64,000 nt of DNA from positions 28,037 through 92,036 of IMG/VR virus record IMGVR_UViG_3300009161_000033; one strand, 5' to 3'. Below, piece after piece: positions 2,253 to 46,633 of this stretch (within the stretch, counting starts at the first letter, position 1; each line of letters begins with the position of its first letter). Below the pieces are notes generated by a model. That model searched no databases, was not told the DNA's origin, and saw nothing but the letters and a program-made list of their open reading frames with translations. The DNA comes from a virus. Position numbers and translations under genes: made by a program.

Positions 2253-2254
2253 CA

Positions 2255-2578
2255 ATGGCAAAACAAAATTATAATAGATATAGTGACTTTATTCTTGATG
2301 GACAACAAACCATTGTTCCATATATTACTTTACCTACTAAATCTACAGATAAACGATATATTTATAAAGTTGGTCAATCTAGGATGGATAAGGTTTCTCA
2401 ACAATATTTCAGTTCCCCAACATTTGGGTGGTTGATTATGATGGCAAACCCAATATATGGTGGACAAGAATGGAATATTCCTGACGGTGCTATCTTGACA
2501 ATTCCATTTCCTTTAGTAGCTTCTTTACAGGACTATAAAAATCAATTAGATAACCATTTCTTCTATTATGGTAGGTAA
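2255..2578 (+). CDS. gp53/LysM-like baseplate wedge protein
   Basis: This small 107-residue protein resembles the LysM-like core of T4 gp53 and the LysM tail proteins of other contractile phages. The telling stretch is YIYKVGQSRMDKVSQQYFSS followed by PTFGWLIMMANP, matching the family pattern of a short beta strand, a helix, then a Trp-containing helix and an Asn-Pro. The later IPDGAILTIP is the typical end of a LysM fold. It is about half the length of T4 gp53, so only the core is present. It starts 2 nt after the preceding gene, and its last 11 nt overlap the start of the hub gene, implying coupled translation. In related systems the LysM protein joins hub or wedge parts of the baseplate. 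Confidence 0.7.
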   Translation: MAKQNYNRYSDFILDGQQTIVPYITLPTKSTDKRYIYKVGQSRMDKVSQQYFSSPTFGWLIMMANPIYGGQEWNIPDGAILTIPFPLVASLQDYKNQLDNHFFYYGR

Positions 2579-10369: not shown

Positions 10370-11230
10370 ATGGCGACAAACAATTCCTTAGATTCGGTAC
10401 TAGCACAGTACGAACAATCAAAACAAGGTGGTTATACTTCCACCTCAAAAATATCTCAAGAAGATAGAATGAAAAAGTATTTCGCGGCAATCCTTAAGGA
10501 TAACGAAAAACAAGGACAAAAAAGATTACGTATCTTACCAACACCTGATGGTTCTTCACCTTTCAAAGAAGTATGGTTCCACGAAGTTCAAGTAGATGGA
10601 AAATGGGTAAAGTTATTTGACCCAGGAAAAAATGACAATGAGCGTTCACCTTTGAGTGAAGTTCATGAAGAGTTAATGTCAACAGGTAAAGATTCCGATA
10701 AGGAACTTGCTAAGTCCTACAAACCACGTAAATTCTACATTGTTAAGGTTATTGACCGTGACAACGAGCAAGATGGTGTTAAATTCTGGCGTTTTAAACA
10801 CAATTACAAAAACGAAGGAATTCTTGACAAAATTATTCCTATTTGGAGAGCTAAAGGTGACATCACAGACGAAACAACAGGTCGTGACATTATCCTTGAA
10901 TTAACCAAAGCAAAAACCCCAAAAGGTGCGGTTTATACAGTTATCCAAACTGTTATGTACGAAGACGCGGGACCTGTTCACGAAGATGATGAGACTGCAA
11001 AATCTTGGATTACTGATGAACTTACTTGGTCTGACGTTTATTCTAAGAAACCTGTAGAATATCTTGAAGCGATTGCACGAGGAGAAACTCCACGTTGGGA
11101 TAGTGACAAAGGCGGATACTCATATGGAAACTCTGATGAATCAGAAATTTCTATGGGTGGTACATCTGAAAAACAACCAACTATTGACCCACAAGCGGGT
11201 GACCAACCTGACGAAGATTTACCATTCTAA
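10370..11230 (+). CDS. Single-stranded DNA-binding protein, T4 gp32-like
   Basis: The 286-residue protein fits the gp32 family (T4 gp32 is 301). It coats single-stranded DNA during replication and recombination and recruits partners through its tail. The N-terminal 45 residues are polar, as in the gp32 cooperativity region. The core from about residue 45 has KRLRILPTPDGSSPFKEVWF and aromatic strands (FYIVKVIDRD, VKFWRFKHNY) typical of the OB fold. The C-terminus is acidic and ends DEDLPF, the classic partner-binding tip of SSB proteins. There is no cysteine in the whole protein, so the zinc site of T4 gp32 is missing. The gene has its own promoter and terminator, fitting strong separate expression, and precedes the UvsX gene. 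Confidence 0.85.
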   Translation: MATNNSLDSVLAQYEQSKQGGYTSTSKISQEDRMKKYFAAILKDNEKQGQKRLRILPTPDGSSPFKEVWFHEVQVDGKWVKLFDPGKNDNERSPLSEVHEELMSTGKDSDKELAKSYKPRKFYIVKVIDRDNEQDGVKFWRFKHNYKNEGILDKIIPIWRAKGDITDETTGRDIILELTKAKTPKGAVYTVIQTVMYEDAGPVHEDDETAKSWITDELTWSDVYSKKPVEYLEAIARGETPRWDSDKGGYSYGNSDESEISMGGTSEKQPTIDPQAGDQPDEDLPF

Positions 11231-11236
11231 GTTATT

Positions 11237-11295
11237 GAACTTGGACATATACTTAGACGCGATGTCTTAGTAAGTGTCCAAGTTCTTATTTTTTT
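11237..11295 (+). terminator. Long-stem terminator after the SSB gene
   Basis: An 11-bp perfect outer stem (GAACTTGGACA with TGTCCAAGTTC) encloses a second near-perfect stem (ACTTAGAC with GTCTTAGT), followed by TTATTTTTTT. It begins 6 nt after the SSB stop and ends 30 nt before the UvsX start, so it may partly limit read-through into the recombination genes. Confidence 0.85.
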
Positions 11296-11324
11296 ACAAA
11301 ACATTTAACAAACACATAGACAAT

Positions 11325-12329
11325 ATGGCAATTAAGAAAAACGACTTTAAATCAATTAAAGATAAATTTTCTACGTCTGCGAAATACAAACCCCAAAGGT
11401 TTTTTGATTTGGGTAATGATTTCTTGGATGCGGTAGGTTTACCAGGACCAGCGATAGGACATTTGAACATGTTCTTAGGTCACTCAGATACAGGAAAGAC
11501 AACGGCATTGGTAAAGACTGCGGTTGATGCACAAAAGAAAGGTATACTTCCTGTGTTTATTATTACAGAACAAAAATGGTCATTTGAACATGCAAAATTA
11601 ATGGGATTTGACTGTGAAGAAGTTGTTGACGAAGAAACAGGAGAATTAGATTGGGATGGGTTTTACATCTTCAATAATAATTTTGATTATATTGAACAAA
11701 TTACTGATTACATTAATTCATTATTAGACGCACAAGAAAAAGGTGAATTAGATTATAGTTTATGTTTCATGTGGGATTCAGTTGGCTCCGTTCCTTGTAA
11801 GATGACTTACGAAGGTAAAGGTGGTAAACAACATAACGCATCAACATTGGCGGATAAGATTGGAATGGGTATTAACCAACGTATTTCAGGAAGTCGTAAG
11901 GCTGACTCAAAATTTGAGAATACATTAATCATTGTTAATCAACCTTGGGTTGAGTTACCTGACAATCCATTTGGACAACCAAAAATTAAAGCGAAAGGTG
12001 GTGAGGCAATTTGGTTAAACTCATCTTTAGTATTCTTGTTTGGTAATCAAAAAGGTGCGGGAACAACTAAAATTACAGCAACTAAAGATAAAAGAACTAT
12101 TAAGTTTGCATCAAGAACTAAAGTATCTGTAATGAAAAACCATATTAATGGTTTAGGTTATGAAGATGGAAAAATCATTGTAACACCTCATGGATTTATT
12201 GCAGGAAAAGAAGCGTCGGAAGAAAAGGCCTCTATTGAAAAATACAAGAAAGAGTACGCCGACTATTGGAAAGAAATCATTGGAACAGATGGTGATTTTG
12301 ATTTAAAAGAAGAGAGAGAACAGTCATAA
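11325..12329 (+). CDS. uvsX: UvsX/RecA-like recombinase
   Basis: This strand-exchange ATPase loads on single-stranded DNA with SSB and drives recombination and recombination-dependent replication. It is 334 residues when started at the ATG at 11325 (MAIKKND). An upstream ATG at 11274 lies inside the terminator stem and would add 17 unlikely residues. The Walker A motif GHSDTGKTT lies at about residues 52-60, a Walker B-like strand YSLCFMWDSVGS at about 143-155, and an N-terminal FFDLGNDFLDAVGLPGPAIG matches the phage UvsX pattern. The C-terminus is acidic and charged. Its order with SSB, flap exonuclease and replicative helicase supports a T4-type replication module. Confidence 0.9.
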   Translation: MAIKKNDFKSIKDKFSTSAKYKPQRFFDLGNDFLDAVGLPGPAIGHLNMFLGHSDTGKTTALVKTAVDAQKKGILPVFIITEQKWSFEHAKLMGFDCEEVVDEETGELDWDGFYIFNNNFDYIEQITDYINSLLDAQEKGELDYSLCFMWDSVGSVPCKMTYEGKGGKQHNASTLADKIGMGINQRISGSRKADSKFENTLIIVNQPWVELPDNPFGQPKIKAKGGEAIWLNSSLVFLFGNQKGAGTTKITATKDKRTIKFASRTKVSVMKNHINGLGYEDGKIIVTPHGFIAGKEASEEKASIEKYKKEYADYWKEIIGTDGDFDLKEEREQS

Positions 12330-19849: not shown

Positions 19850-20305
19850 ATGGCAGAAGGAAAAACATATGGAGTTAATTTCCCTTTTAGAGATTCTTTA
19901 AAAGGTAACTATCTTTCTTTATCACAAACCGCTGATGAGGAGGTAAGAAGTAGTTTAATTCATTTATTATTAACAAGAAAAGGTACAAGATATTATTTAC
20001 CTGATTTTGGAACAAGATTATATGAATATATTTTTGAACCTATGGACGCTCCTACATTTTCTGATATTGAGTCTGAAGTTAGAGATTCGGTGGCGGAATA
20101 CATTCCTGGTATTACTATTACTAAAATTAGTGTCACCGCGGCATCGGATGGTGAAGAGGACAAAGGAACTTACGTTCAAGGGGACACAAGAGTTTACCGA
20201 GTACCTGGTATTAGTGAAAAGGAACACACTGCCAAAATTAAAATAGATTATATCATTACGGATTCCGCTTTTAATCAGAGTGATTTCGTAATCATTAATA
20301 TTTAA
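19850..20305 (+). CDS. Baseplate wedge protein gp25-like (GPW/gp25 family)
   Basis: The 151-residue protein matches the gp25 family, found in contractile tails, R-type pyocins and type VI secretion. The conserved core is seen as LSQTADEEVRSSLIHLLLTR at about residues 24-43, then KGTRYYLPDFGTRLYEYIFE, with the Gly-x-Arg and FG-x-x-L pattern of the family. T4 gp25 is 132 residues, so length fits. It would join gp6 and gp53 in the inner wedge. The next gene, 6 nt downstream, is gp6-like, which is the standard order. Confidence 0.92.
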   Translation: MAEGKTYGVNFPFRDSLKGNYLSLSQTADEEVRSSLIHLLLTRKGTRYYLPDFGTRLYEYIFEPMDAPTFSDIESEVRDSVAEYIPGITITKISVTAASDGEEDKGTYVQGDTRVYRVPGISEKEHTAKIKIDYIITDSAFNQSDFVIINI

Positions 20306-20311
20306 TGATAT

Positions 20312-22150
20312 ATGGCAAATAAAAAAATATCGTATACTACGAGGGACTTTCAGTCAATAAGAACTGAATTAATTAATTTTACCCGAACATATTATCCTGA
20401 ACTAATTGATAATTTTAACGACGCGTCAGTATTTTCTGCGTTATTAGATTTAAATGCCGCGGTAAGTGATAACCTACAATTTAACATTGATAGAAGTATA
20501 CAGGAAACTGTATTACAGTATGCCCAACAAAGGTCTTCTATTTTCAACATTGCAAGAACCTATGGATTAAAAGTACCAGGTCAAAGACCTTCAGTTGCGT
20601 TAGTTGATTTTGCGATAACTGTTCCTGCGTTTGGAGATAAAGAAGATTTAAGATATTGTGGTATCCTTAGAAGAGGTTCACAAGTTAACGGTGCAGGACA
20701 AGTATTTGAAACGGTTTATGATATTGATTTTGCATCTGCCATTAATGCTGAAGGATACCCAAACAGATTAAAAATACCAAACTTTGATTCCAATAATAAA
20801 TTACTCAATTATACTATTGTTAAAAGAGAAACGGTTGTTAACGGGATTACCAAAGTTTTCAAGAGAGTAGTAACTGCAAATGATGTTAAACCATTCTTTG
20901 AAATGTTTTTACCTGAAAAAAATGTTTTAGGTGTGACAAGTGTATTATTAAAAGACGGTACTCAATACGCTAATATGCCCTCATCACAAGAATTCTTAGG
21001 TCTTGACAATAGATGGTACGAAGTTAAAGCTTTAGCTGAGGATAGAGTTTTCATTGAGGACCCTACTAAAGTATCTGACCAACCTGGAATTAAGGTAGGT
21101 AAGTATGTTGTTACAAGTGACAAATTTATTACCGAATACACACCTGAAGGTTTTATGAAATTAACTTTTGGTGGTGGTAGTCAGTCCGCTGATGAACAAT
21201 TACGAGAATTTGCTAGAAATGGTTATAAATTAGATTTGTATAAATACTCAAACAACTTGGCATTGGGTAGTACATTAAAAGCGAACACGACCATGTTTAT
21301 TCAATATAGAATTGGTGGAGGTACAGGAAGTAATTTAGGTGTTAGTGTTATTACACAAATTGGTACAGTTTCTTTCTTTGTTAACGGTCCTTCAGATTCA
21401 GTCAATACAAGTGTGGTTAATTCATTAAGTTGTAACAATGTAACCGCGGCAATTGGGGGAGCGGCATCACCAACAACTGAAGAGGTTAGAAACTTGGTGG
21501 CGTTTAACTTCTCAGCACAGAACAGAGCGGTTACTGTAAATGACTATGATTCGTTAATTAGAACAATGCCATCACAATTTGGGGCACCTGCAAAGGTTGC
21601 AATAACTGAGGAGAATAACAAGATTAAAATTAAAATGTTATCTTTTGACGACTCAGGTAAATTAACCGAAATAGTATCAGACACATTAAAGAATAATGTT
21701 GCAAACTACCTATCCAACTATAGAATGATTAATGATTACATCTCAGTTGAAACCGCAAGTGTTATTGATTTGGCGATGAATATTGATGTTGTTTTAGATA
21801 ATAGCCAAACTCAAGGAGCGATAATTTCTCAGATTGTAAACATTGTTACAAATTACTTTGACCCAGCAAATAGACAAATGGGTGAGAATGTTTATGTTTC
21901 AGAAATTAGAAGGTTAATTCAAGCAGAAAATGGAGTTATCTCGGTATCAGGAATCCAAGTATTCAACAAGGTTGGAGGACAGTACTCATCATCTCAAACG
22001 TCACAAGCTTATTTAGACAGTACAACAAGAGAAATCCAATTAATTGATGAGACAATCTATGCTGAACCTAGTCAAACTTATCAAGTTAGGTTCCCAAACA
22101 AGGATATTAACGTAAGAGTTAAGAATCTATCTACAGTTAATTTCTCCTGA
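20312..22150 (+). CDS. Baseplate wedge protein gp6-like (gpJ family)
   Basis: The 612-residue protein corresponds to T4 gp6 (660 residues) and the gpJ family; it would form the inner ring joining wedges around the hub. The N-terminus has ISYTTRDFQSIRTELINFTR, a family hallmark. A Gly-rich turn (YRIGGGTGSNLGV) lies at about residue 330, and NFSAQNRAVTVNDYDSLIRT at about 395-415 is the conserved gpJ-like element. The C-terminal domain has VYVSEIRRLIQAENGVISVS. It follows gp25 directly and ends in a 72-nt gap before the next large tail gene. Confidence 0.9.
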   Translation: MANKKISYTTRDFQSIRTELINFTRTYYPELIDNFNDASVFSALLDLNAAVSDNLQFNIDRSIQETVLQYAQQRSSIFNIARTYGLKVPGQRPSVALVDFAITVPAFGDKEDLRYCGILRRGSQVNGAGQVFETVYDIDFASAINAEGYPNRLKIPNFDSNNKLLNYTIVKRETVVNGITKVFKRVVTANDVKPFFEMFLPEKNVLGVTSVLLKDGTQYANMPSSQEFLGLDNRWYEVKALAEDRVFIEDPTKVSDQPGIKVGKYVVTSDKFITEYTPEGFMKLTFGGGSQSADEQLREFARNGYKLDLYKYSNNLALGSTLKANTTMFIQYRIGGGTGSNLGVSVITQIGTVSFFVNGPSDSVNTSVVNSLSCNNVTAAIGGAASPTTEEVRNLVAFNFSAQNRAVTVNDYDSLIRTMPSQFGAPAKVAITEENNKIKIKMLSFDDSGKLTEIVSDTLKNNVANYLSNYRMINDYISVETASVIDLAMNIDVVLDNSQTQGAIISQIVNIVTNYFDPANRQMGENVYVSEIRRLIQAENGVISVSGIQVFNKVGGQYSSSQTSQAYLDSTTREIQLIDETIYAEPSQTYQVRFPNKDINVRVKNLSTVNFS

Positions 22151-34900: not shown

Positions 34901-34976
34901 ATCATGTTCACAATTAACTAATGGTATTAATTTTAAACTGAATGTTGGAATAAACTTTAAAATCTTATGTAGTTAA
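31956..34976 (+). CDS. Baseplate wedge protein, gp7/gpI-like
   Basis: At 1006 residues this is close to T4 gp7 (1032). The best evidence is at about residues 350-480: KVLQVYGKSFDDIKKYITAL, then LKNLAQTLGWATNI, then YLFKSKGTRKSIEILLRLIG. That last helix is characteristic of the tail protein I (gpI) family, which contacts gp6/gpJ. The C-terminal third carries several cysteines (CKPCSI, CPLESVECP) and a small beta domain. It overlaps both neighbours at TAATG junctions. Expected role: outer wedge component linking gp6 to fibres. Confidence 0.7.
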   Translation: MAVKKYTCPPQSATGAGTFSDNLVGLQLVAGGGLTQGNFNFITSTNEKTNRTFSTGTFSDPINLDSLGINSINQSKSIVENNFKVYPNFDLSQVTNFTMYGSMSKRMSASITTIISYFPAGIESTYMGSNYVSGPTAVNIVYNITDDETSFDLDVTRLRNPFDVDFTTNSTRNLQLKEVQVSPLRDMTLQYTKYSLYFKGDGYNVTGIVPTTGLTNGTLKVYVTGNPFSGEPITNENLVIRPNDMEVNKVFNEELDEVENFLLNRNVTPKYTSVFKVPRENEDGTYYIQNLNTTWPLYGSWNIDIVTKAFSSYLTIINDVSDSFDLYKTNLVSRFLTTGAFKEFDTSEHKVEKVLQVYGKSFDDIKKYITALSFMTSVNYNVGNDIPSQLLKNLAQTLGWATNISPISETELLNSVFGEKNSNTSVYPGVSQEQTPDSLNYQYYRNLILNSAYLFKSKGTRKSIEILLRLIGAPEALIEFNEHVYLADQKINLNQFNTQFAQISGGTYVQQIPILDSTDIYSIFGLPYTGFTTTSDIQDVNITIDEYPMDSYGFPMTPTNSESYFFQMGSGWFEQTPQHRAPEQVDLTNSIFVGNNPNYQTVLMPYSYGQEYLNRYRKFPFMNLGYQLTKAIDNNKSWVDNEVGIRSNLDGNFNARYYTSDERLVLNVKNVDLFMNPAQGIAYDIWYMSQQYNYPIPNEGLNYVTPTYCDPKPYSPYPSIGGVDWTEINPQPKRKTFFEFAQTFWLNTINVRNRQFSSNGKTGGYPTLESIFWRYLQSDETIGIPNDNFTYKTMMEYVNGLGDYWIRLIEQMVPATTIWNTGVKLENSIFHRQKFVWRRQEGCQLIKVPCKPCSIISNLFDYDCPLESVECPIYPWTNNPTIQDFGGVLGQLLTNYLTANSYSLNDCDFNGMTTEWFVDLQLNDYSVVRYSFFNGIGYSSPIYSTPTTSQWNSGLLIALNSLEDNGYGYYLTNTNTVIVYNQSCSQLTNGINFKLNVGINFKILCS

Positions 34977-37600
34977 TGTCTTGTTTATTGACTTATACAA
35001 ATAGTATAACAGGTGACTGTTTAAATGATTTATCGGGTGCGTTTAGCATTGATATTGCAGGTAGTGCTCCTGATTACAGTATTGAATGGATTAGTCCTTT
35101 TATAGGAACCATCTTTTTGGGACCTGGAGTTAGTAATTATACTCAAACAGGGTTATCAGGTGGGACATACTCGTTCAACATCATTGATAGTTGTTCCCCG
35201 ACAAATACGACATTAGCGGTGAACGTAAATATTTCCACAGGGACTTGTGTGAGTATTACAAGTGAGACAAATACTGTATGTGGTTTAAATAACGGAGCCT
35301 TAACTGCTACTACAACCAACATGTATTCCGAAGCTAAATTTTATTTATATGAATATAGTTCAGGTTATATAACTTCAGGAACAAGTTTTACAGAATCTTA
35401 TAGTTTTGGTTCTTTATCAGGAGGAACATATTATGTGATTGCGGATGACGGAGGAGGATGTACGGGTAAATCTGAGACATGTATTATTAAAGAATCAAGT
35501 CCTCTTGAAATTGGTTTATATGTTATTAATGATGCGGGATGTGCCGTTAATTCAGGTGCTATTTATATCACAGGATTAACAGGTGTACCACCTTACACTT
35601 ATTTATGGAGTAACGGTGGAACATTACAATCAATAACGGGTTTAACTGCTGGACCTTATAGTGTTACTGTTACAGATAGTTCGGGGTGTGCTCAAAGTAG
35701 TGGTGTTACAGTTAATACAGTACCCCCCATTGGATTAGGTGCGTTTACTGTTGTAACTCCAAGTTGTTTCGCTTCTGACGGTGAAGTAACCGTGACAATA
35801 ACAGGTGGGACTGCTCCGTTTTATTATTCAGGTTCAAATGGAACAGTTGCGGTTAGTTTTGCAACTTCTTATACTTTTGTTGGTGTTCCTGCAGGAATGT
35901 TTTCAGTACATGTAACTGACTCGGGATTATGTAGTTTTACTTCGTCAACAACTTTATTAACACCTGGTGGGTTAACCGTAACGTCTGTTAATATTACAAA
36001 TTCAGTATGTAATGATAGTTCGGGTAAAATTAAAGTTATTATATATGGAGGTTCACCACCATACACTTATACATTAACGGATTCATTAGGTAATCCAACT
36101 GTTATTACAGGAAGTTTTACTAGTTGGACATTTAATGGATTACCATCGGACACTTACACTTTAACAATTTCTGATAGTGGCCCTTGTACGTTTACTCAAG
36201 AGTATGTTGTAGATAATACTGTTTTATTTGAATTGACAGTTGATACAACAGGGACAACTTGTAATTTAAATGATGGTCAAGTTACTCTAAATATTACTAC
36301 GGGAGGAGTTGGACCATTCCAATATGAGATTGATGGACAAACAACGTATTCTAACGATTATACATATACCTTTATTGATTTAATTTCAGGTAGTTATACG
36401 GCAACCGTAACGGATACTAACGGATGTGCACAAATTGTACCATTCAATATAGGGAGCTCAAGTAATGTTGATTTTGTTCTTATTGGAACAGATTCTACAG
36501 ATGGAACCAATGGTTCTATAACCGCGTTTATAACTAGCGGAGAACCTACATTTACATGGGAATGGAGTACCAATGTTAATGGTCAAACAGGTTTAACAGT
36601 TAGTAATTTATCTGCGGGAACATATAGTTTATCAGTAACCGATTTTAATGGATGTACACTAATCAGAGAGATTATTATTAATGGGTTCAATGAGTTATCC
36701 TCGTATCAAATTTTTAATATTTGTGATGACGACTTTATAAATACAGGTCAGACGATTAGGAAGGGACCTCAACAAATGTTAAATGAAGGTTTTTATGATT
36801 TAACATTATTGGATACTAATTGCATATTAAATCAAGCAATATTCACGGCTCAGGTAACTGTTAGTGGGGTAACCCAAGAAAATTCATTTTATACAGGTAA
36901 TACCTTGAGTGATTATCCGTCAGATAGTTTATTCTATAATACGGTCAACGATTTATTGATTTCTTATGAAGGTATTGGTGACGTGGTAATTGATTATGTA
37001 AATAATATAATAACCGTAAGTACAGATTGTGATTCTTCAGTTTCTTTAAATGACGCTGATGTTAAAATTGATTTAAAAATATCTTATGATATTAACTGCC
37101 AAATATGTGGAATTAATTTAACGCCCACACCAACAGTAACGCCAACAAATACGATAACACCAACAGTAACACCAACAAATACAATAACTCCAACAATTAC
37201 TCCAACACCAAACCTTAGTCCTACCCCTACCCCTACTATAACACCAACAAATACTATAACACCTACTATAACACCAACTATTACTAAAACTCCTACGGTA
37301 ACTCCTACTATTACTAAAACACCTACGGTAACTCCTACTATTACTAAAACACCTACACAAACTAAAACACCAACACCAACAGTTACTCCGACACCGACAA
37401 CTAGTTGTATCCGATACTTAGTTAAAGGTAATAATATTGGTGCAACCTATGATTTTAAACCTTGTTGTGGTGAAACATTAATACCACCATTTATTGACAA
37501 TAGTCCTGGAACAAATTATTATATTTGTTCATCAAATGGTATTACGGTGACTAATGGAACCGCTACGGTAGTTAATGTTGGAGTATGTCCGAGTTGTTAA
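34976..37600 (+). CDS. Fibre/adhesin protein with seven SprB-like repeats and a Thr-Pro linker
   Basis: The 874-residue protein has about seven tandem beta domains of 70-90 residues between residues 15 and 570. Each contains the SprB-repeat pattern: a Cys or Asp-Gly start, a GGxxPYxYxW strand, a LxAGxYxVxVTD strand and a closing C. The clearest are VPPYTYLWSNGG with TGLTAGPYSVTVTDSSGC, and SGSYTATVTDTNGC. SprB repeats are known from gliding adhesins of Flavobacteriia. Residues 570-712 form a separate beta domain. A Thr-Pro-rich linker (about 715-808) leads to a cysteine-rich C-terminal domain (CCGE, YYICSS, CPSC) similar to modules in the other fibre genes. Likely receptor-binding or spacer fibre. 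Confidence 0.8.
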   Translation: MSCLLTYTNSITGDCLNDLSGAFSIDIAGSAPDYSIEWISPFIGTIFLGPGVSNYTQTGLSGGTYSFNIIDSCSPTNTTLAVNVNISTGTCVSITSETNTVCGLNNGALTATTTNMYSEAKFYLYEYSSGYITSGTSFTESYSFGSLSGGTYYVIADDGGGCTGKSETCIIKESSPLEIGLYVINDAGCAVNSGAIYITGLTGVPPYTYLWSNGGTLQSITGLTAGPYSVTVTDSSGCAQSSGVTVNTVPPIGLGAFTVVTPSCFASDGEVTVTITGGTAPFYYSGSNGTVAVSFATSYTFVGVPAGMFSVHVTDSGLCSFTSSTTLLTPGGLTVTSVNITNSVCNDSSGKIKVIIYGGSPPYTYTLTDSLGNPTVITGSFTSWTFNGLPSDTYTLTISDSGPCTFTQEYVVDNTVLFELTVDTTGTTCNLNDGQVTLNITTGGVGPFQYEIDGQTTYSNDYTYTFIDLISGSYTATVTDTNGCAQIVPFNIGSSSNVDFVLIGTDSTDGTNGSITAFITSGEPTFTWEWSTNVNGQTGLTVSNLSAGTYSLSVTDFNGCTLIREIIINGFNELSSYQIFNICDDDFINTGQTIRKGPQQMLNEGFYDLTLLDTNCILNQAIFTAQVTVSGVTQENSFYTGNTLSDYPSDSLFYNTVNDLLISYEGIGDVVIDYVNNIITVSTDCDSSVSLNDADVKIDLKISYDINCQICGINLTPTPTVTPTNTITPTVTPTNTITPTITPTPNLSPTPTPTITPTNTITPTITPTITKTPTVTPTITKTPTVTPTITKTPTQTKTPTPTVTPTPTTSCIRYLVKGNNIGATYDFKPCCGETLIPPFIDNSPGTNYYICSSNGITVTNGTATVVNVGVCPSC
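37126..37405 (+). repeat. Tandem repeat encoding a Thr-Pro/Ile-Thr linker
   Basis: Short units built on acaccaaca, ataactccaaca and acctacggtaactcc recur across about 280 bp and encode TPTITPT-like and TITKTPTVTP-like units. A near-exact 30-bp unit (giving TPTITKTPTV) appears two to three times in tandem near 37281-37350. Similar repeats occur in the other fibre genes and, inverted, in the minus-strand island. Confidence 0.8.
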
Positions 37601-37785: not shown

Positions 37786-37844
37786 TCTCCCAGCACACCA
37801 TTTATTAAAAATAAATGTTTTCTATTTTTAAAATAAACACTTTT

Positions 37845-38825
37845 ATGAAATATGATTTAGTATTTGTTACCGCACAACCTGATGTCCCGTATTTTCATTG
37901 GCAGGCAAAAGTTTACTCTTATAATTTTATTGAATTAGGAATTAAACCTGAACAAATACACATTGTATTTGGTATTGTAAATGGTAACACAGAACCAACT
38001 AAAGAGTCTTTAGAATTAAAAGAAATGGGGGTAAATGTACATCATTATTTAGATGAAAGAGAACACAGACATTATATCCCAAATATTAAACCATTTTTAG
38101 TTTCTAAATGGATTAAAGATTATCCTGAACTTGGTAAATGTTTCTTTTTACATGATGCCGATATTATTTTTAGAGTCTTACCTGATTTTGAAAAATTATT
38201 ATCTGATGATATATCATATCTGTCAGATACTAAAGGTTATATAGGGTATGATTATATTAATAGTTGTTGTGAACGATATGAAAAACAACACCCATCATCA
38301 AATAAAGGTCAATTAATTCAAGAAATGGCTGACGTTATTGGAGTTACTGTTGATTGTATTAAATGTAATCAAGAAAATTCAGGTGGTGGTCAATACATTA
38401 TTAAAAACACCAATTATGAAGTTTGGGATAAAATTTATAAAGATTGTACTCCTTTGTATGACCAAATGAAAGATTATCATATTAGATTCCCAATAGCACC
38501 TGGTGAAATACAGTTTTGGACTGCAGAAATGTGGTCATTATTGTGGAATCTTTGGTTGTTTGATATTGAAACACAAATAACTAATGACCTTAGTTTTTCT
38601 TGGGCGACAGATAATATAATGTTATATGAAAAACATCCAATCTTACATATGGCGGGGGTTACACATGATTTAAAATCAACAAAATTTTATAAAGGTGAAT
38701 TTATCAATATTAACCCATTGAATAAATTAAAAGAGAATATTGATTACTTCAACTATGTTGACAAGAATAGTGCAACAATAAAATATATTGAGATAATGAA
38801 AAGGATTGTAAAAAATCAATTCTAA
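37845..38825 (+). CDS. Putative glycosyltransferase (GT-A-like)
   Basis: The gene encodes 326 residues from the ATG at 37845; an upstream in-frame ATG at 37815 would add ten mostly hydrophobic residues. The start MKYDLVFVTAQPDVPYFHWQ fits a Rossmann-like first strand. A strand ending GKCFFLHDADIIF at about residue 110 places an Asp-x-Asp motif where GT-A enzymes bind the sugar-nucleotide metal. NSGGGQYIIKN at about 190, FWTAEMWSLLWNLWL at about 230 and a late HPILHMAGV segment resemble acceptor-site parts of small glycosyltransferases. There is no membrane segment. It could modify phage fibres or host surface glycans. The fold call is moderate and the substrate unknown. Confidence 0.55.
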   Translation: MKYDLVFVTAQPDVPYFHWQAKVYSYNFIELGIKPEQIHIVFGIVNGNTEPTKESLELKEMGVNVHHYLDEREHRHYIPNIKPFLVSKWIKDYPELGKCFFLHDADIIFRVLPDFEKLLSDDISYLSDTKGYIGYDYINSCCERYEKQHPSSNKGQLIQEMADVIGVTVDCIKCNQENSGGGQYIIKNTNYEVWDKIYKDCTPLYDQMKDYHIRFPIAPGEIQFWTAEMWSLLWNLWLFDIETQITNDLSFSWATDNIMLYEKHPILHMAGVTHDLKSTKFYKGEFININPLNKLKENIDYFNYVDKNSATIKYIEIMKRIVKNQF

Positions 38826-38840: not shown

Positions 38841-40268
38841 ATGAGTAATAAAACCCCATATCAAATCACTGAAGAAACATCTTGTATACCAACAGGTGTT
38901 AATGAATGTAATGTTATCACCTTATTTAAAATGGGTGTTGAATGTAATGTTGTTCATCCGTCATATCCTGAAGCAACTGACGGAACCGCGTCTTTAGTTA
39001 TTACAGGAGGTACACCACCTTATTTTATATTATGGGAAAATGGAAATGTTGGACCCTCAATCAGTAACTTAAGTGCTGGTTCATATCAAGCAACAGTGAT
39101 TGATTATTATGGTGATTTCAGTGCAAATACAACTTGTGTTTTAACGGGAGTAACACCAACAACAACAACGACCTCAACTAGTACCACATCACCATACCCT
39201 AATGAATATGAATTATGTATGGTTACCAATATGTTGGCACGAGGAGGTTATGTTGAAACTCAAACGCATTTTAACCCAAATGGAATTTATGATGGAAAAC
39301 CAATGTGGATATCGGATGATAGTCAGCAATCAATTATATGGGATAATACTAATTCTCAATGGTTGGTATCAGCGGCAACACCAACACTTTATGTTATATC
39401 AAATCTTAACCCAACTTACCCTCCAATATATGGTAGTTGGTTTTTAATTGGTGCGACAGGTAGTGTTATAGTTTATGAAGGACTTTGTCAAACATTTCCT
39501 GTTGGATTAAGACAACTTAGAGGTACTGAAATGTCTACACCTTTAACAATGAATGTTACAAAAAATCAAACAATATGCGGATGTGATGGAGGATTAACAA
39601 TAACCGCGAATGGGGGAACACCACCTTACAGTTATTCTATAGATTCAGGATTAACATATAAAAGAATTCCAATCTTTACTAATTTATGTTCGGGGTCTTA
39701 TAACGTTGTTGTTACAGATAATAATGGTATTATAACAAGTTCAAATGTTATATTAAATCAACCATCAAAACCAACAACATACGTTGTTTCATTAAATACA
39801 ACATCTGAGATTACTGAAAATTCAAGTAACAGAGTTGGTAAAACATATACGACAACTTTATCAGTAATACCAAGTCTACCTGATGGTGTTGTAATAAGTT
39901 TTGATTTAACACATTTAAATCTGACAAAAATTTCACCAAACAAAGAATCTGCGGAAGTCATAACGAAATCATTACTTTATTTAAATGGGGATGATTATTA
40001 TCCTAATACTGACGTTATTAGTGATAAAACAAATAGCACTAAGGTTGGATGTCAAAATGAACCCGTTTATATCACATCAACAGTGGATTCTTGGAGTACT
40101 AAAGGTAGTTTATCTGTAGATAATCAAACTAAATTTATACTAACAACTAATACTATCATCAGTAAAAATGAAGACAATAACTGTTATTTAGTTTCAAGTG
40201 ATGAAACATATTCGATTAGTAATCTTAGAGTAAGAGGGTGTAGTTGTTGTTCAGTAATAACAGAATAA
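38841..40268 (+). CDS. Fibre protein with two SprB-like repeats and a W-type domain
   Basis: The 475-residue protein has one SprB-like repeat at about residues 35-100 (ITGGTPPYFILWENGN, then LSAGSYQATVIDYYGDFSAN) and another at about 240-310 (GGTPPYSYSIDSG, then LCSGSYNVVVTDNNGI). Between them a Thr/Ser-rich linker leads to a domain with IYDGKPMWISDD and TNSQWLVSAATP. A related domain occurs in the minus-strand fibre gene (TYDGYNFWRS, DLQWCLSTS). The C-terminus is a beta domain ending in a CSCC cluster. It sits between the glycosyltransferase-like gene and the next fibre gene and is probably a receptor-binding tail component. Confidence 0.72.
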   Translation: MSNKTPYQITEETSCIPTGVNECNVITLFKMGVECNVVHPSYPEATDGTASLVITGGTPPYFILWENGNVGPSISNLSAGSYQATVIDYYGDFSANTTCVLTGVTPTTTTTSTSTTSPYPNEYELCMVTNMLARGGYVETQTHFNPNGIYDGKPMWISDDSQQSIIWDNTNSQWLVSAATPTLYVISNLNPTYPPIYGSWFLIGATGSVIVYEGLCQTFPVGLRQLRGTEMSTPLTMNVTKNQTICGCDGGLTITANGGTPPYSYSIDSGLTYKRIPIFTNLCSGSYNVVVTDNNGIITSSNVILNQPSKPTTYVVSLNTTSEITENSSNRVGKTYTTTLSVIPSLPDGVVISFDLTHLNLTKISPNKESAEVITKSLLYLNGDDYYPNTDVISDKTNSTKVGCQNEPVYITSTVDSWSTKGSLSVDNQTKFILTTNTIISKNEDNNCYLVSSDETYSISNLRVRGCSCCSVITE

Positions 40269-40295: not shown

Positions 40296-42998
40296 ATGGG
40301 ATTTATAATAAAAAATACGTCAGGGTTAATTAATACAAGATTGACTGACACAGGTAGACAAAAGTTATCACAAGGTAATTTTAATATATCTTACTTCCAA
40401 ATTGGGGATAGTGAGGTATCGTATAATACACTACCAACAAGTTATAATCAATTTGACACTGTTGTATTAGAGCCCGCATTTAACGCCCAAAATTCAAGTG
40501 GGGTTCCTGAATCAAATAAGGAGAACGTTAAGTATCCTTACTATGTTGATGGTTTTACAGGTAATACTTATGGAATTCCGTTCATGGATTCAGTAGTTTC
40601 ACCCGTTTATAATAGAGCGGTTATGAGAGGATTTTTTACAGGTGATACTACCGCGACAACTATTAATTGGAGTGCGTTAACTAATAATTTTTATGCTATT
40701 AACGCTAACTATGTGGTTCAGATGAATACCTTATCAGGTACAAATGAAATTACATTAATTAGTAATATTAGTAATCCTGATTTTGTTAGAGAACCTGCAA
40801 TTGGTGATATCATCACAATTTATTATGATGGTAAAGGATTGGAAAACTGTTACTGTATTAATTTACCAACACCAACACCAACACCAACAACTTCAATGAC
40901 ACCTTCAGTGACTCCAAGTATTGACACAACATCAACCCCAACACCAACTCCATCATCAACAAATTCGTATCCTTGTGATTCACCTACACCCACACCAACA
41001 CCATCTAAGACACCTTGTTTCACACCAACACCAAGTAGACAATGTCCACTTCCATCACCACCCGATTGCTTAGTTGATATGGATAGTTGTTATTCAATGT
41101 TAACTTATAAGATTGTTGATATTTGTTTAGATGTAATAACATTAGATAGACCGACGCCTGACTTCTCAACAGTAACTAATGAATGTTATGGTAGAGTAAT
41201 TGTTTACCCACCTAATATGACAACAATTTACGATAGTATTACACCTAATCGTCATTGGAATGATAACGTTATTAATTTTGAATCAGTTTGTTATACTGAT
41301 GAATTTGACGTTAAAGTTTGGAACATGAACATTCCATGGTCAGAGAATCCTGCAGGATTAATCTCATCTATTAATAAAGATTATACTAACTTTGGTTCCG
41401 TTGCTTATTTAGGGACTAAAGAATATTTTGGGTACGCGTCAAGTAGTGGTCAAACTGATAGTAGTTCTGTTTACTATGTTAATTCATTTGGGGACATTGT
41501 TACGGTTAAACCTGAACAACAAAAAGCCATTGCAATTATTCATTATACAAATCAAACAGTTGATTTCTTCTATGGTGAAAAATTTGCTTTAGAACCATAC
41601 GACCCTTCTAACCCTACTGATACAACAGGACAAGCAAGAAACTTTAAATTACACATTCCTTGGTTAATGTGGCATAAAAATCCTGAATGTTGTAATGGAC
41701 AAACATTTTGGGTTGACCCTCCAGGGTTTGATGAATTAGACCTATTCCAAGTTCAGAATTTACAATCAACTAAAAATGTTGATATGAATTCACCTGGTAT
41801 TAGATACTATCATCTATGGGATACAAATCCTAATATTGATGGTTATCCTAATAGAATTGGTAAAGTATTTCCTGATGATAAATTAGTAATTATTGATGAT
41901 GAGGAAATCATTGCGGCAATGTCTTACAAATCAAACCGAAATTGGACTTTACCATCACCAAAAATTTCATTAATAACACCAAATACTTGTGGTAATGATA
42001 GTACAAGTGTTACGGGTATTTTAACAGGTAATACAGAATATTTGTATGTTACTTATAGATTAAGTAATGATAGTGGGTTTACAAACTCACTACATTGTAA
42101 CTATTACTCATTAATCCAAGGACCGAACATCGATTGTTCCCCAACTACGTCACAAAATGTGGCAGTTAGATTCGGAGGAGAATTCGGTTGTTTAAGTACG
42201 GATTTCCCAATAACCACAACAACAACTACTTTACCACCTTGTGATTGTTATGAAGTAACGGGTGAGGTTGGTTGTCCCATTGAATATACTGATTGTTATG
42301 GAGTACCGACTAGTTATAATTTAACTGCAATTACGGAAAACATTTGTTCAGTAACTACCCCAACATCTTCGTGTGAAACATGGTCAGTTATTGATTTAGG
42401 TTTATGTAGTGAATCAGTTGATTGTGGTAATTTTACAACAACCACGACAACTTGTCCCCCAATCTGTAATGTTAATCAAGGGTTTTCAGCAACCAAGTTT
42501 GAAATTATATGTCAAAAAGTTGATGGTACAGGAAGACCAAATTCATCTGAATGGAAAATTATTGATTTTACAGACCAATTATCGGCAACTACAGTTACGG
42601 TCAATTCGTATATCACTCAAAGTGGTTTAACAGGTAATACATTTGTTATTACTCAACAAGAATATGATGATGCACCAACTTATAACCTAAATGACTATAT
42701 TTCATTAACACCTGTTGGTTATACAGGAACTTCACTTAATTTTGGTGATGAATATTACTTCTATGGTTCGTTGGAAACTGATATTGAAGCGACCATCTAT
42801 GAGATGAGATATAAGATTAACTTAGGACAGGCTGAGTTCCAAAGTACATCAAATCCTACATGGACAAATGGTAATCCTTCTTACGTTACTGAAATTGGTC
42901 TTTACGATTCTAACAAAAATCTTATGATTATATCAAAAATGCAATCACCTATCTTAAGACAAGGTATTCAGCAGTTTTTGATTAAATTTGATATTTAA
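40296..42998 (+). CDS. Tail fibre protein with conserved ends and variable mosaic centre
   Basis: The 900-residue protein has an N-terminus (SGLINTRLTDTGRQKLSQGN, then ISYFQIGDSEVSY) of a type common in virion-attached fibre proteins of T4-like phages. Residues about 190-250 are a Thr-Pro/Ser-Pro linker with cysteines. A large beta region follows, then a cysteine-rich module at about 648-715 (CDCYEVTG, IEYTDCYG, ICSVTTP, DLGLCSES) shared with the minus-strand island, and a short TTTTTT linker. The C-terminus (EIGLYDSNKNLMIISKM) resembles the closing segment of other fibre proteins. Fixed ends with a mosaic centre suggest an adsorption protein under diversifying selection. It ends 3 nt before the RuvC-like gene. 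Confidence 0.75.
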   Translation: MGFIIKNTSGLINTRLTDTGRQKLSQGNFNISYFQIGDSEVSYNTLPTSYNQFDTVVLEPAFNAQNSSGVPESNKENVKYPYYVDGFTGNTYGIPFMDSVVSPVYNRAVMRGFFTGDTTATTINWSALTNNFYAINANYVVQMNTLSGTNEITLISNISNPDFVREPAIGDIITIYYDGKGLENCYCINLPTPTPTPTTSMTPSVTPSIDTTSTPTPTPSSTNSYPCDSPTPTPTPSKTPCFTPTPSRQCPLPSPPDCLVDMDSCYSMLTYKIVDICLDVITLDRPTPDFSTVTNECYGRVIVYPPNMTTIYDSITPNRHWNDNVINFESVCYTDEFDVKVWNMNIPWSENPAGLISSINKDYTNFGSVAYLGTKEYFGYASSSGQTDSSSVYYVNSFGDIVTVKPEQQKAIAIIHYTNQTVDFFYGEKFALEPYDPSNPTDTTGQARNFKLHIPWLMWHKNPECCNGQTFWVDPPGFDELDLFQVQNLQSTKNVDMNSPGIRYYHLWDTNPNIDGYPNRIGKVFPDDKLVIIDDEEIIAAMSYKSNRNWTLPSPKISLITPNTCGNDSTSVTGILTGNTEYLYVTYRLSNDSGFTNSLHCNYYSLIQGPNIDCSPTTSQNVAVRFGGEFGCLSTDFPITTTTTTLPPCDCYEVTGEVGCPIEYTDCYGVPTSYNLTAITENICSVTTPTSSCETWSVIDLGLCSESVDCGNFTTTTTTCPPICNVNQGFSATKFEIICQKVDGTGRPNSSEWKIIDFTDQLSATTVTVNSYITQSGLTGNTFVITQQEYDDAPTYNLNDYISLTPVGYTGTSLNFGDEYYFYGSLETDIEATIYEMRYKINLGQAEFQSTSNPTWTNGNPSYVTEIGLYDSNKNLMIISKMQSPILRQGIQQFLIKFDI
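40867..41040 (+). repeat. Low-complexity Thr-Pro/Ser-Pro linker repeat in the fibre gene
   Basis: Copies of ccaacaccaacacc and related ccatca/ccaagt units form a degenerate tandem repeat. Its reverse complement (ggtgttggtgttgg) is present in the minus-strand island, so the region forms part of a dispersed inverted repeat. Confidence 0.7.
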
Positions 42999-43001
42999 TA
43001 T

Positions 43002-43604
43002 ATGAAAAAAGCAACAAAAGAAAGTCCTAAAGTTCTTGGGCTTGACGTTTCGTCCAAAACAATTGGATGGGCGTTATTTGACATCCAAACAAGAGAATTA
43101 TTGGAATTAACTCATGTATCACCCGTCCCTAAACCAAAGGAAGAAAATAAAATTAAAGAACTTATTTTAAAGAGTGAAATTTTTAAAACTAAATTAGTTC
43201 AATATAAAGATTTAGGTATTACTAAGGTTATCATTGAGGAACCTTTAATGAATAGTAATAACGTCTACACCATTCAAACCTTACTAAGATTTAATACGTT
43301 AATTACGAAACAAATCTTTGATGTATTAGGAATAGTACCTGATTACGTATCAACATATAATTCAAGAAAATTTGCATTCCCTGAGTTAGTTCGAGAAAAT
43401 GATAAAGGTAAATATGTATTGTTTGGAGGGTTACCAAAAGACTGTGATAAGAAACAAATCATTTGGGATTTGGTAGCGAAAAGAGAACCTCAGATTACTT
43501 GGGCTTACACAAGAAACAATACTCTTAAGAAAGAAAACTTTGACCAAACAGATGCTTATTGTTGTGTATTAGGTTACATGTCCCAAGAAGGAATTTGGAA
43601 ATAA
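43002..43604 (+). CDS. RuvC-like Holliday junction resolvase
   Basis: The 200-residue protein has an RNase H fold with RuvC-type acidic residues: VLGLDVSSKTIGWALFD at the N-terminus, KVIIEEPLM at about residue 80 and FDQTDAYCCVLGYM near the end. It would cut branched DNA made by UvsX-driven recombination before packaging, the job done in T4 by the unrelated endonuclease VII. It lies 3 nt after the fibre gene and is followed by a terminator that also marks the meeting point with the minus-strand island. Confidence 0.8.
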   Translation: MKKATKESPKVLGLDVSSKTIGWALFDIQTRELLELTHVSPVPKPKEENKIKELILKSEIFKTKLVQYKDLGITKVIIEEPLMNSNNVYTIQTLLRFNTLITKQIFDVLGIVPDYVSTYNSRKFAFPELVRENDKGKYVLFGGLPKDCDKKQIIWDLVAKREPQITWAYTRNNTLKKENFDQTDAYCCVLGYMSQEGIWK

Positions 43605-43629
43605 TATCTGTTAAATAACCGATAATCTG

Positions 43630-43660
43630 AAATATCGTCTCTTTGGACGATATTTTTGTT
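43630..43660 (+). terminator. Terminator between the resolvase and the convergent minus-strand island
   Basis: AAATATCGTC pairs with GACGATATTT over 10 bp with a 6-nt loop, then TTGTTTTT on the plus strand. The minus-strand gene ends 2 nt beyond. The T run is on the plus side only, so it mainly stops plus-strand transcription. Confidence 0.85.
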
Positions 43661-43661
43661 T

Positions 43662-44675
43662 TTAACAAGGTACAATATTTAATATTAAACCTGTTGGGTC
43701 AACCTGTAATGAATATTTATTTGTTGGGATAGTATAGTCCTGTAATACACCACCCCATACAGAAATCCAATTATTTCCACCATTAATAGGACTTCCTACT
43801 GGAGTTGTATTATCTCGTAGGATTTGACCAACGGCAAATGACGATGTTGTGGTGTAAGACCTTTCGGCGATAATGCTTGAACATGAAGTACCACTACTTG
43901 AATAAATAGTATCACTTCCTGGTAAACATGAACCACCTGATGTAGGGATTGCACCTATATAAAAGACTGCTTTTATTAGAGAAGGTACAGGTGAAATTGG
44001 ATAACCACCTGATGAAGAAATTATTGTAAATCTCATAGCTTTTTGACCGTAAACAATTGGACCGACTCTACTAGTTGTTCCTGTAATTTCACCAACACCT
44101 AAAGAATCTAAAGTAACCGTAAATGTTGATGTTACACTTTCCGTTAAAGTTATTGAGTTCATAACCGTTGTCCCTGTCATTGAGTTTAATCCATCCCAAT
44201 CTACTTGTATTGTTAGAGTATCAAAAGGGACTCCTAATAATGACGCTTGTCCTGAAAAAAGTGAAAGAGAACTAAAAGCATTTATATAATATGATGAACC
44301 ATACGATGTAAATCTCGTATCAGCGATTCCTGATGGACTTGGAGTTATTGTTGGAGTTATTGTTGGAGTTATTGTTGGTGTTGGAGTTATTGTTGGTGTT
44401 GGGGTCAATGTTGGAGTTACTGATGGGGTTGGACTTGAAGGAAGTTCAATACAACTAAACGTTTCAAATCTCTCACATCCATCCATAGTTATTATTTTAA
44501 TACCTACCGCAGGTGCCGTATTAAACTGATATGGTAAAATTATTGTATTTGAAGGAGGAACTGTTGTACCTATAGAAGCAACAATAATACAATTATTACC
44601 ATACACATCACAAGCATAAACTGTGTATGGTGTTGTAATACTACCTGTTATTGATGTTATTTCTATAGATGTCAT
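43662..44675 (-). CDS. Minus-strand fibre-like protein with Thr-Pro linker
   Basis: The gene encodes 337 residues from the ATG at 44675, 2 nt after the upstream stop; a longer frame would need a TTG start. The N-terminal 75 residues (ITGSITTPYTVYACDVYGNN, then KIITMDGCERFETFSC) are related to the complete 72-residue protein encoded at 46848. A Thr-Pro/Ile-Thr linker at about residues 82-115 leads to a beta-rich C-terminal domain with GDTGTTS-type turns and a probable disulfide (GGSCLPGS, GTSCSSII). It is the last gene of a three-gene minus-strand unit and likely encodes an alternative or accessory adhesin. Confidence 0.7.
   Translation of the reverse strand: MTSIEITSITGSITTPYTVYACDVYGNNCIIVASIGTTVPPSNTIILPYQFNTAPAVGIKIITMDGCERFETFSCIELPSSPTPSVTPTLTPTPTITPTPTITPTITPTITPSPSGIADTRFTSYGSSYYINAFSSLSLFSGQASLLGVPFDTLTIQVDWDGLNSMTGTTVMNSITLTESVTSTFTVTLDSLGVGEITGTTSRVGPIVYGQKAMRFTIISSSGGYPISPVPSLIKAVFYIGAIPTSGGSCLPGSDTIYSSSGTSCSSIIAERSYTTTSSFAVGQILRDNTTPVGSPINGGNNWISVWGGVLQDYTIPTNKYSLQVDPTGLILNIVPC
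44335..44435 (-). repeat. Tandem 12-15 bp repeat encoding the Thr-Pro linker in the minus-strand fibre
   Basis: On the plus strand the unit ggagttattgtt repeats three times nearly perfectly, followed by ggtgttggagttattgtt variants. Translated on the minus strand it gives TPTITPT-like units. It is the inverse of repeats in the plus-strand fibre genes. Confidence 0.75.
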
Positions 44676-44677
44676 AA

Positions 44678-46633
44678 TTATACTATTGGACAATTACCCC
44701 CAATACAATCACCGTAAGGAGTTATTGAAGTTATATTTCCTGACGATATAATAAACGGTGTTGTTAATGAACAGAATTTAGGACTTGATGAATAATTATT
44801 TACATGTATTGTCTGTAGAACATTATCACAGTCATAATAAACTACGCTAATACCCGTTGATGTACCTTTAATAGGTCCACTGTTTGATACCGAGTAACAT
44901 TTACAAACTAAAGGAGGGCAAACTCCGTCAGAACAGATACCAAGATTGGTAATCGTAAAAGGATTCAGTGAAGTTCCGATAGGTGTTGTTAATGAACAAA
45001 CATATTGTGGTATAACATCTGAAGTTGTGACATTTTGAGAAATTCCATTACAATCCACGTAAGTGTAATTACAGATTAAGTCACTTATCAATTCATAACA
45101 ATAACAAGGAATACCACTTGGTGTTGGTGTTAAAGTAGGTGTAGGAGTCGGAGTTGAACTTGGAATAACAATACAAGAGAAACAACCTCCTAAATTAGAA
45201 TATCCTAATGGACCATCAATTAAATCAATAGTATTAACCCCAATTATACTGTTATTAACCCCAACGTATGATACACATTTAAGTACGCCATCAATGTATG
45301 CCTTAAATACCATAAATTCTTCTAAAGTATCCCCTGAAGGAGTTGGAACTGAATTTGTTGTATAATACATCATACCGTTAGTACAATCTTGAAATTGTTT
45401 ACTTGTTGGACAATCAAACTGACCATCAACAGTTGTAAATGATACGTCACCTAATACATTACAAGGTCTTGTAACAATAGGGGTTGAACTTGGGGTTACT
45501 GTAGGTGTTGGTGTAGGTGTTGGACTATAACTATTAATTGTTGCGTCAATTGAAACATCAACACAAAGGTCAATTACTGGTGTAGGAGTTGGTGTTGGAG
45601 TATGAGTAGGTGTGACACTTGGTGTAGGAGTTGGCTCAACTAAACAATCAAATATTGCGTCAAAATCAAAAGTAGTACATGCAAGTGTTGTTGTGGTAGT
45701 TGTTGGACAAATACCCTCAAAAAAGTATTCTTCACATAAGTCAGGACATTTTGAAAAACAAGGTGACTTACCTGACAGTAAACAAAAACCACCTAAACTT
45801 GTTGATAAACACCATTGTAAGTCAGTTGTATTGTAATAAATAAAATAGTATCCAGTAGTACTCCTCCAAAAATTGTAACCATCATAAGTACCGTCTAAAG
45901 TATATGTATCATCATAATCATTACCCGTATTAGTAATACAATATTCGTCTGAACATGGGCCACAATTAGGATTTTCTGAACAAAGTCCTAAATTAGTGAC
46001 GACTACAGTACAACTAATGTCAAATGTAGGTTCTGCCAATGAACATAAAGAATTGTTATAACCTTCTAAATTTATAACTATTATACTACCTGTACCACAC
46101 TCTACATATGTTATATCACATCCACCAATGTCATCAACATCTATTTGATAACAGTTACAACAAGGATAATCTATAATACAGGTTGTACAATCGGGATATT
46201 TATAAACAACTTCTCCGTATACTTGATTACCAAGAGGGATAATACTACCATAAACATCAATAGACATTAATGTATAACAACCTAAAATTAGTGATGGTGT
46301 TATACAATCGGCTGCGTTCGTAAATTCGGAAAAACTATAACTCACCCCAATACTTGAAGGTTGGAAAGGAAATGAGACATCATTACTCCCTAATAAATAA
46401 AAAACATCACTACTACAACAACTACTAAAAGAAAATATGTATCTTGTATCCCAAACATCAACAGTCAAATTAGGGTTTGGTACAAAAGTAAGTAAGTCTG
46501 CGGTAATGAAATATTCTTGACTGTCTTGAACAGTTATACTACAAGAGTTACCATTACAATCGGTAAAACTTTGTCCCTGAGGGCCTCCACTACTATTATT
46601 TAGCTGATATGATGAACAAATTATACTACTCAT
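44678..46633 (-). CDS. Minus-strand cysteine-rich mosaic fibre-like protein
   Basis: The 651-residue protein contains many cysteines (over 50 by eye). Three modules follow the pattern C-x-C-Y ... DC ... CSLTTP ... LGxC: one near residues 160-225 (CCNCYQIDVDDIGGC, NLGLCSENPNC), one near 505-570 (CYCYELISDLIC, VCSLTTP, NLGICSDGVC) and one at the end (CKCYSVSN, FCSLTTP). A W-type domain (TYDGYNFWRSTTGYYF, DLQWCLSTS) lies near 245-285. Thr-Pro linkers separate the parts. Thr-rich TTTTTT also occurs. It overlaps the upstream 72-residue gene at ATGA and lies 2 nt before the next. High cysteine content suggests a disulfide- or metal-stabilised extracellular protein. Confidence 0.72.
   Translation of the reverse strand: MSSIICSSYQLNNSSGGPQGQSFTDCNGNSCSITVQDSQEYFITADLLTFVPNPNLTVDVWDTRYIFSFSSCCSSDVFYLLGSNDVSFPFQPSSIGVSYSFSEFTNAADCITPSLILGCYTLMSIDVYGSIIPLGNQVYGEVVYKYPDCTTCIIDYPCCNCYQIDVDDIGGCDITYVECGTGSIIVINLEGYNNSLCSLAEPTFDISCTVVVTNLGLCSENPNCGPCSDEYCITNTGNDYDDTYTLDGTYDGYNFWRSTTGYYFIYYNTTDLQWCLSTSLGGFCLLSGKSPCFSKCPDLCEEYFFEGICPTTTTTTLACTTFDFDAIFDCLVEPTPTPSVTPTHTPTPTPTPVIDLCVDVSIDATINSYSPTPTPTPTVTPSSTPIVTRPCNVLGDVSFTTVDGQFDCPTSKQFQDCTNGMMYYTTNSVPTPSGDTLEEFMVFKAYIDGVLKCVSYVGVNNSIIGVNTIDLIDGPLGYSNLGGCFSCIVIPSSTPTPTPTLTPTPSGIPCYCYELISDLICNYTYVDCNGISQNVTTSDVIPQYVCSLTTPIGTSLNPFTITNLGICSDGVCPPLVCKCYSVSNSGPIKGTSTGISVVYYDCDNVLQTIHVNNYSSSPKFCSLTTPFIISSGNITSITPYGDCIGGNCPIV
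45110..45640 (-). repeat. Dispersed Thr-Pro linker repeats in the minus-strand fibre gene
   Basis: Three clusters (about 45115-45165, 45480-45530 and 45575-45640) of ggtgttggtgtagg-type units encode TPTPTPT linkers between domains. The intervening sequence is non-repetitive coding DNA. These are inverted copies of the ccaacacc units in the plus-strand fibre genes. Confidence 0.65.

Follow-up and report, generated by a model that had tools for sequence, protein, structure and literature searches.

A cysteine-rich domain family in fibre-like proteins of an uncultivated phage, with a fibre slot in which the domain appears to be gained, lost or replaced

Ig-like domains are accessory extracellular modules carried by unrelated virion proteins of tailed phages, and SprB repeats (PF13573) are typical of the surface adhesins of Bacteroidota. 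BACON, a small domain of crAss-like and other gut phages that is shared with Bacteroidota, occurs singly or in tandem in tail-associated proteins (de Jonge et al. 2019, PMC6949934). In stable arrays its copies group into clades by position, and single domains have also been transferred horizontally. A role in host binding has been proposed but is unproven; horizontal transfer of Ig-like domains is mentioned in the same work (PMC6949934). More generally, the receptor-binding proteins of phages are mosaic, with fragments common to unrelated tail proteins and with tail fibres as outliers (Smug et al. 2023, PMC10684548).

Sequence comparison places the domain described here as a different, unnamed family among mobile phage tail domains such as BACON. 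BACON is the closest parallel, as the present domain also has stable position-specific copies together with others that moved. Unlike BACON, it is cysteine-rich, has no Pfam match above cut-off and sits in a linker-bounded slot, and the phage carrying it has T4-like baseplate and recombination genes, which sets it apart from the BACON phages. Like Ig-like domains, it occurs on unrelated proteins that are probably all virion components, but its copies have no Ig-family Pfam match above cut-off and its five-strand predicted fold has no significant PDB counterpart. Two neighbouring genes of the same locus, both fibre-like, carry SprB repeats, which are separate from the cysteine domain. Compared with the general mosaicism described above, the case concerns a single uncatalogued domain for which an internal slot is defined, and its between-gene copies mostly fall under the 50% identity limit used for contemporary mosaicism (PMC10684548). 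As in mobile fibre domains generally, it is present or absent at one site among close carriers, and the same domain recurs in unrelated proteins. This defines an uncatalogued domain family in proteins that probably face the host, in an uncultivated phage lineage that is widespread, and its profile helps to annotate proteins now labelled hypothetical.

The window, that is, the whole stretch of 64,000 nucleotides that was analysed, covers positions 28037-92036 of a 92-kb IMG/VR virus record (IMGVR_UViG_3300009161_000033) from an uncultivated virus of bacteria. It encodes T4-like baseplate wedge genes (19850-20305 and 20312-22150), a gp32-like single-strand DNA-binding protein (10370..11230, plus strand; PF08804, 3e-12), a UvsX-like recombinase (11274..12329, plus strand; phrog_97, 3e-16) and a RuvC-like Holliday junction resolvase (43002..43604, plus strand; phrog_159, 3.9e-6), as well as a DnaB-like helicase, a ribonucleotide reductase, a primase and an SbcC/D-type nuclease. 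The phage lineage is probably T4-like and its host probably belongs to the Bacteroidota.

Large modular proteins that carry SprB repeats, threonine runs and PTPTP linkers are encoded in a row between ~35 and 46.6 kb of the window. An 874-aa protein (34976..37600, plus strand) combines SprB repeats (E 3e-17) with a PTPTP linker and ends in a copy of the cysteine domain. A 900-aa protein (40296..42998, plus strand) has 448 relatives in IMG/VR contigs and is called a fibre here from its context, since its AF2 model was poor (pLDDT 56) and Foldseek with this model returned nothing meaningful. The Pfam profile Phage_tail_fib (PF12571) did not match it, and scored 18.3 bits, below its cut-off of 23, against the joined ends of a distant relative. 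A 651-aa modular protein on the minus strand (44678..46633) is probably also a fibre or adhesin. Between the two SprB-repeat genes, 37815-38825 encodes a 336-aa protein that is glycosyltransferase-like by eye and has no Pfam match.

The original prediction had placed five copies of the domain in three of these genes. A profile was seeded with the window copies and a slot copy of a second phage, then iterated over six-frame translations of ~90 loci; for the test it was rebuilt with the window and its closest relatives excluded, and run on the window. This leave-out profile recovered all five copies (i-E 6e-7 to 1e-12), with the mild circularity that its training copies had first been recruited using window seeds. 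Copy A (42240..42425, plus strand; i-E 6e-7) lies in the 900-aa fibre, copies B1 (45962..46159; i-E 3e-10), B2 (44918..45106; i-E 1e-12) and B3 (44690..44905; i-E 2e-11) lie on the minus strand in the 651-aa protein, and copy S (37406..37597, plus strand; i-E 9e-8) forms the C-terminus of the 874-aa protein. A partial sixth copy, about half a domain, was found at the N-terminus of the 651-aa protein (46502..46618, minus strand; i-E 2e-4), and its counterpart also starts the homologues of this protein in three relatives (L003, L011 and L063). Outside the window, one more copy, the seventh, is encoded at record position 379-564; adjoining it, at record 994-6484, are proteins that look by eye like glycosyltransferases and methyltransferases. 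Eleven copies were counted in a large relative phage record of 322 kb (G003), several of them in one open frame of ~3800 aa (e.g. C1:283859-292033).

The motif given at the outset, from C-x-C-Y to LGxC, is looser than proposed: B1 reads YVEC and CSLAEP, and the gap before Y-x-DC varies from ~11 to 20 residues across copies. Copy S had been taken for a degenerate form; it is instead a member of a distinct 'CC' subtype, being 40% identical to a fibre slot copy of another phage (L016).

The statement that the domain has no named family held in Pfam, PHROGs, NCBIfam and the PDB. No credible family match was obtained in the first three, and the PHROG matches of whole proteins landed on their linkers. 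When 59 copies were compared with Pfam, none matched BACON (PF13004) even at E 1, none matched SprB (PF13573), which occurs in other parts of the 874-aa and 475-aa proteins, and none matched an Ig or fn3 family above cut-off, the one stray hit being a CD47 V-set at E 0.18. The 651-aa protein, copy A and a consensus made by hand gave no credible match when run by tblastn against a cultured-phage collection, and a literature search on threonine linkers and domains of such kind found nothing specific. Structure prediction, which had been suggested as a check, gave a confident result: AF2 on copy A with an alignment of 59 copies predicted a five-stranded domain (pLDDT 92.1, pTM 0.73). The PDB held no significant match to the domain by sequence or by fold (none at E <= 0.001), and the top fold matches in BFVD were uncharacterised phage proteins (TM 0.73-0.75, E 0.03-0.06). 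Because no solved structure resembles the domain, binding was not inferred from the fold.

The cysteines of 87 distinct copies were compared in profile numbering. C21 and C39 were near-invariant and were jointly absent from two related copies, C1 and C60 were associated, and C3 and C65 tended to co-occur (36 copies with both, 37 with neither and 14 with one only, some absent end cysteines being due to truncated alignments). Shared ancestry may also account for the pairing, which amounts to at most five independent contrasts. This paired presence and absence suggests three disulfides, one of them optional, most likely C1-C60 and C21-C39 with C3-C65 as the optional third. A precedent for disulfides in phage virions is phage Milano (PMC10811340).

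To see how the domain sits in the fibre, 80 loci were taken from the 448 contigs with a relative of the 900-aa protein, and 81 sequences were classed. The N-terminal 630 and C-terminal 165 residues of the family are conserved, and the content between them varies. In the window, this slot spans 42192..42494 on the plus strand (residues ~634-734), with threonine-run linkers to the left (ITTTTTT, 42210..42230, plus strand) and right (TTTTTT, 42435..42452, plus strand) of copy A; in relatives it holds linkers, other domains or almost nothing. Threonine linkers only were found in 34 sequences, almost nothing in 24, the CC subtype of the domain in 8, the CxC subtype in 5, a different domain of FILTE type in 6 and a large multi-domain insert in 4. 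These counts are approximate: L083, placed under CxC by a simple rule, in fact carries a large insert that has a copy at its end, and two of the large inserts end similarly. The unnamed C[FY]ILTE domain fills the slot in L015, L017, L019, L020, L023 and L085. Among 17 distinct domain-bearing slots, threonine runs flank the content on both sides in 12 and on one side in 4, and in L081 two tandem copies each have a threonine run ahead of them. The AF2 model of the complete fibre, for what its low confidence allows, shows the slot as a poorly predicted segment flanked by two strands of better confidence. A distant relative of the 900-aa protein in a Bacteroidota MAG contig lacks the slot content.

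On a tree of 64 distinct fibres built without the slot, the slot state changed at least 15 times, and presence of the cysteine domain was gained or lost at least 7 times. The window and the domain-bearing L010 form a clade (support 99) nested among relatives with linkers only. Three such relatives, L003, L011 and L063, have only threonine linkers in the slot and are 86-90% identical to the window fibre elsewhere (90% outside the slot for L003). L010 and L003 share an IMG sample number, so both slot states occur together. L083 and L026 share 93% identity outside the slot and are distinguished there by a large insert flanked by similar linkers. Near-identical fibres with and without the domain thus provide natural plus/minus pairs for questions of host range. 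Judged from these comparisons, the slot appears to be a fixed loop-like site where the domain is gained, lost or replaced.

The explanation we consider likely is that this unnamed, disulfide-held domain serves as an accessory surface module on virion proteins and is exchanged by phage recombination. A compact five-stranded fold of ~60 residues, held by disulfides, would be displayed on several virion proteins; in the 900-aa fibre it would sit in a fixed loop slot flanked by threonine-rich linkers, and the content of this slot would be gained, lost, duplicated or replaced slowly, over evolutionary time. The simplest route would be homologous or homeologous recombination by the phage's own UvsX/gp32/SbcCD/RuvC-type machinery, with repetitive linkers that would tolerate imprecise joins. 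Going by their setting, the displayed modules would probably bind glycans or proteins of the host surface and tune adsorption. A bolder version, which we put forward only tentatively, would make the slot, whose position is conserved across this large lineage, a dedicated display site and the threonine-coding DNA a recombination handle for swapping receptor-binding modules. The cysteine-rich domain would be one of several such modules, taken from other virion genes and in the end from proteins that Bacteroidota secrete. The threonine flanks are what would be expected if linkers tolerate joins, and equally if they are mere spacers. In settings other than the slot, PTPTP linkers rather than threonine runs often precede the domain, so threonine runs are not a required part of a mobile unit.

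The domain might alternatively be a structural spacer or stalk that stiffens or spaces the fibre, as some Ig-like domains do, without binding, in which case the slot differences would be near-neutral changes in length. Its embedding between threonine and PTPTP linkers agrees with such a role, as does the fact that many relatives manage without it, their slot being linker-only or nearly empty. However, the slot takes several unrelated domains, and the cysteine domain is also found at protein ends (copy S and many C-termini of minus-strand proteins), which suits display better, and we regard a pure spacer as unlikely.

Exchange as the preferred explanation for the domain's distribution is also seen between genes. 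In a census of its settings, the domain occurred in the slot, in same-strand upstream genes and in an opposite-strand downstream gene (about 30 contigs). In the domain tree, copy S falls inside a clade of CC-type slot copies from other phages (support 99/93), so copies moved between genes and the CC subtype is present in at least two of them. The minus-strand copies behave differently. Each of B1, B2 and B3 clusters with the same-position copy in L003, L011 and L063 (supports 95/91, 97/87 and a weaker 82/83), which indicates vertical inheritance, and a DNA search found no similarity between copy A and any minus-strand copy, so that recent copying between them is not visible. Taken together, movement between genes is real but old, and gain and loss at the slot are more recent. 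The idea of a mobile cassette is thus borne out by slot gain and loss and by the passage of S between genes, but not for the minus-strand copies, which are old and vertically inherited. Module sharing at this locus is general and not peculiar to the cysteine domain, as a second module (YDGxxxW...QW) is common to the 651-aa protein (45674..45946, minus strand) and the 475-aa SprB-repeat protein (39192..39506, plus strand; pairwise E 1e-6).

The original prediction went further and read the spread over both strands as a sign of shuffling, which would make the domain an active diversity-generating cassette, now copied from one fibre gene or strand to another inside a single genome. The seven copies on both strands of one record invite this reading, and the repetitive linker DNA does make inverted repeats between the strands. 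Yet copy A is only ~40% identical to B1 and B2 and has no DNA similarity to the minus-strand copies, the B copies fall into position-specific clades, and about 30 relatives also encode the domain in a minus-strand gene downstream of the fibre. Current shuffling is therefore not supported by the spread over strands, and an active cassette is improbable. An inversion cassette was considered and rejected: the longest inverted repeats are mostly PTPTP-coding linker DNA, ~75-80% complementary, and the orientation of the minus-strand gene relative to the fibre is the same in relatives. The 92-kb record, possibly a fragment, contained no match to an RVT_1 reverse transcriptase, which counts against active diversification, and a DGR target was likewise rejected.

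The similarity among the copies had also been open to refutation as nothing beyond what cysteine-rich sequences share. With the cysteines held fixed in 1000 shuffles per copy, no shuffle scored as high as the real sequence (31.6 bits against a maximum of 10.4 for copy A, and 34.2 against 20.8 for copy S). In pairwise comparisons with shuffles, A-B1 gave z 8, A-B2 z 10 and S with its L016 relative z 9.7, and this last likeness ties S to the family through intermediate sequences. Chance or convergent cysteine-rich sequence without common origin, to which weakly similar pairs such as B3-S (z -0.3) might point, is extremely improbable given the leave-out E-values, these shuffles, the intermediates connecting the copies and the confident fold predicted from their joint alignment. 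By these sequence tests, the window copies belong to one homologous domain family.

Lastly, relatives were sought in cells. The domain profile matched 4 of about 700 Bacteroidota genomes (E 7e-7 to 6e-5 per genome); L093, L094, L115 and L116 are Bacteroidota genomes with domain-related proteins. Three of the four matches are short proteins with a signal peptide by eye and a C-terminal domain, and in the fourth, a long protein, the domain is likewise C-terminal. Of the profile cysteines, the cellular copies retain C1, C21, C39 and the final one, but not C3. These weak but consistent indications point to an extracellular domain common to hosts and phages. A reciprocal profile built from the cellular copies matched nothing in reversed sequences and retrieved four phage copies (best 7e-6).
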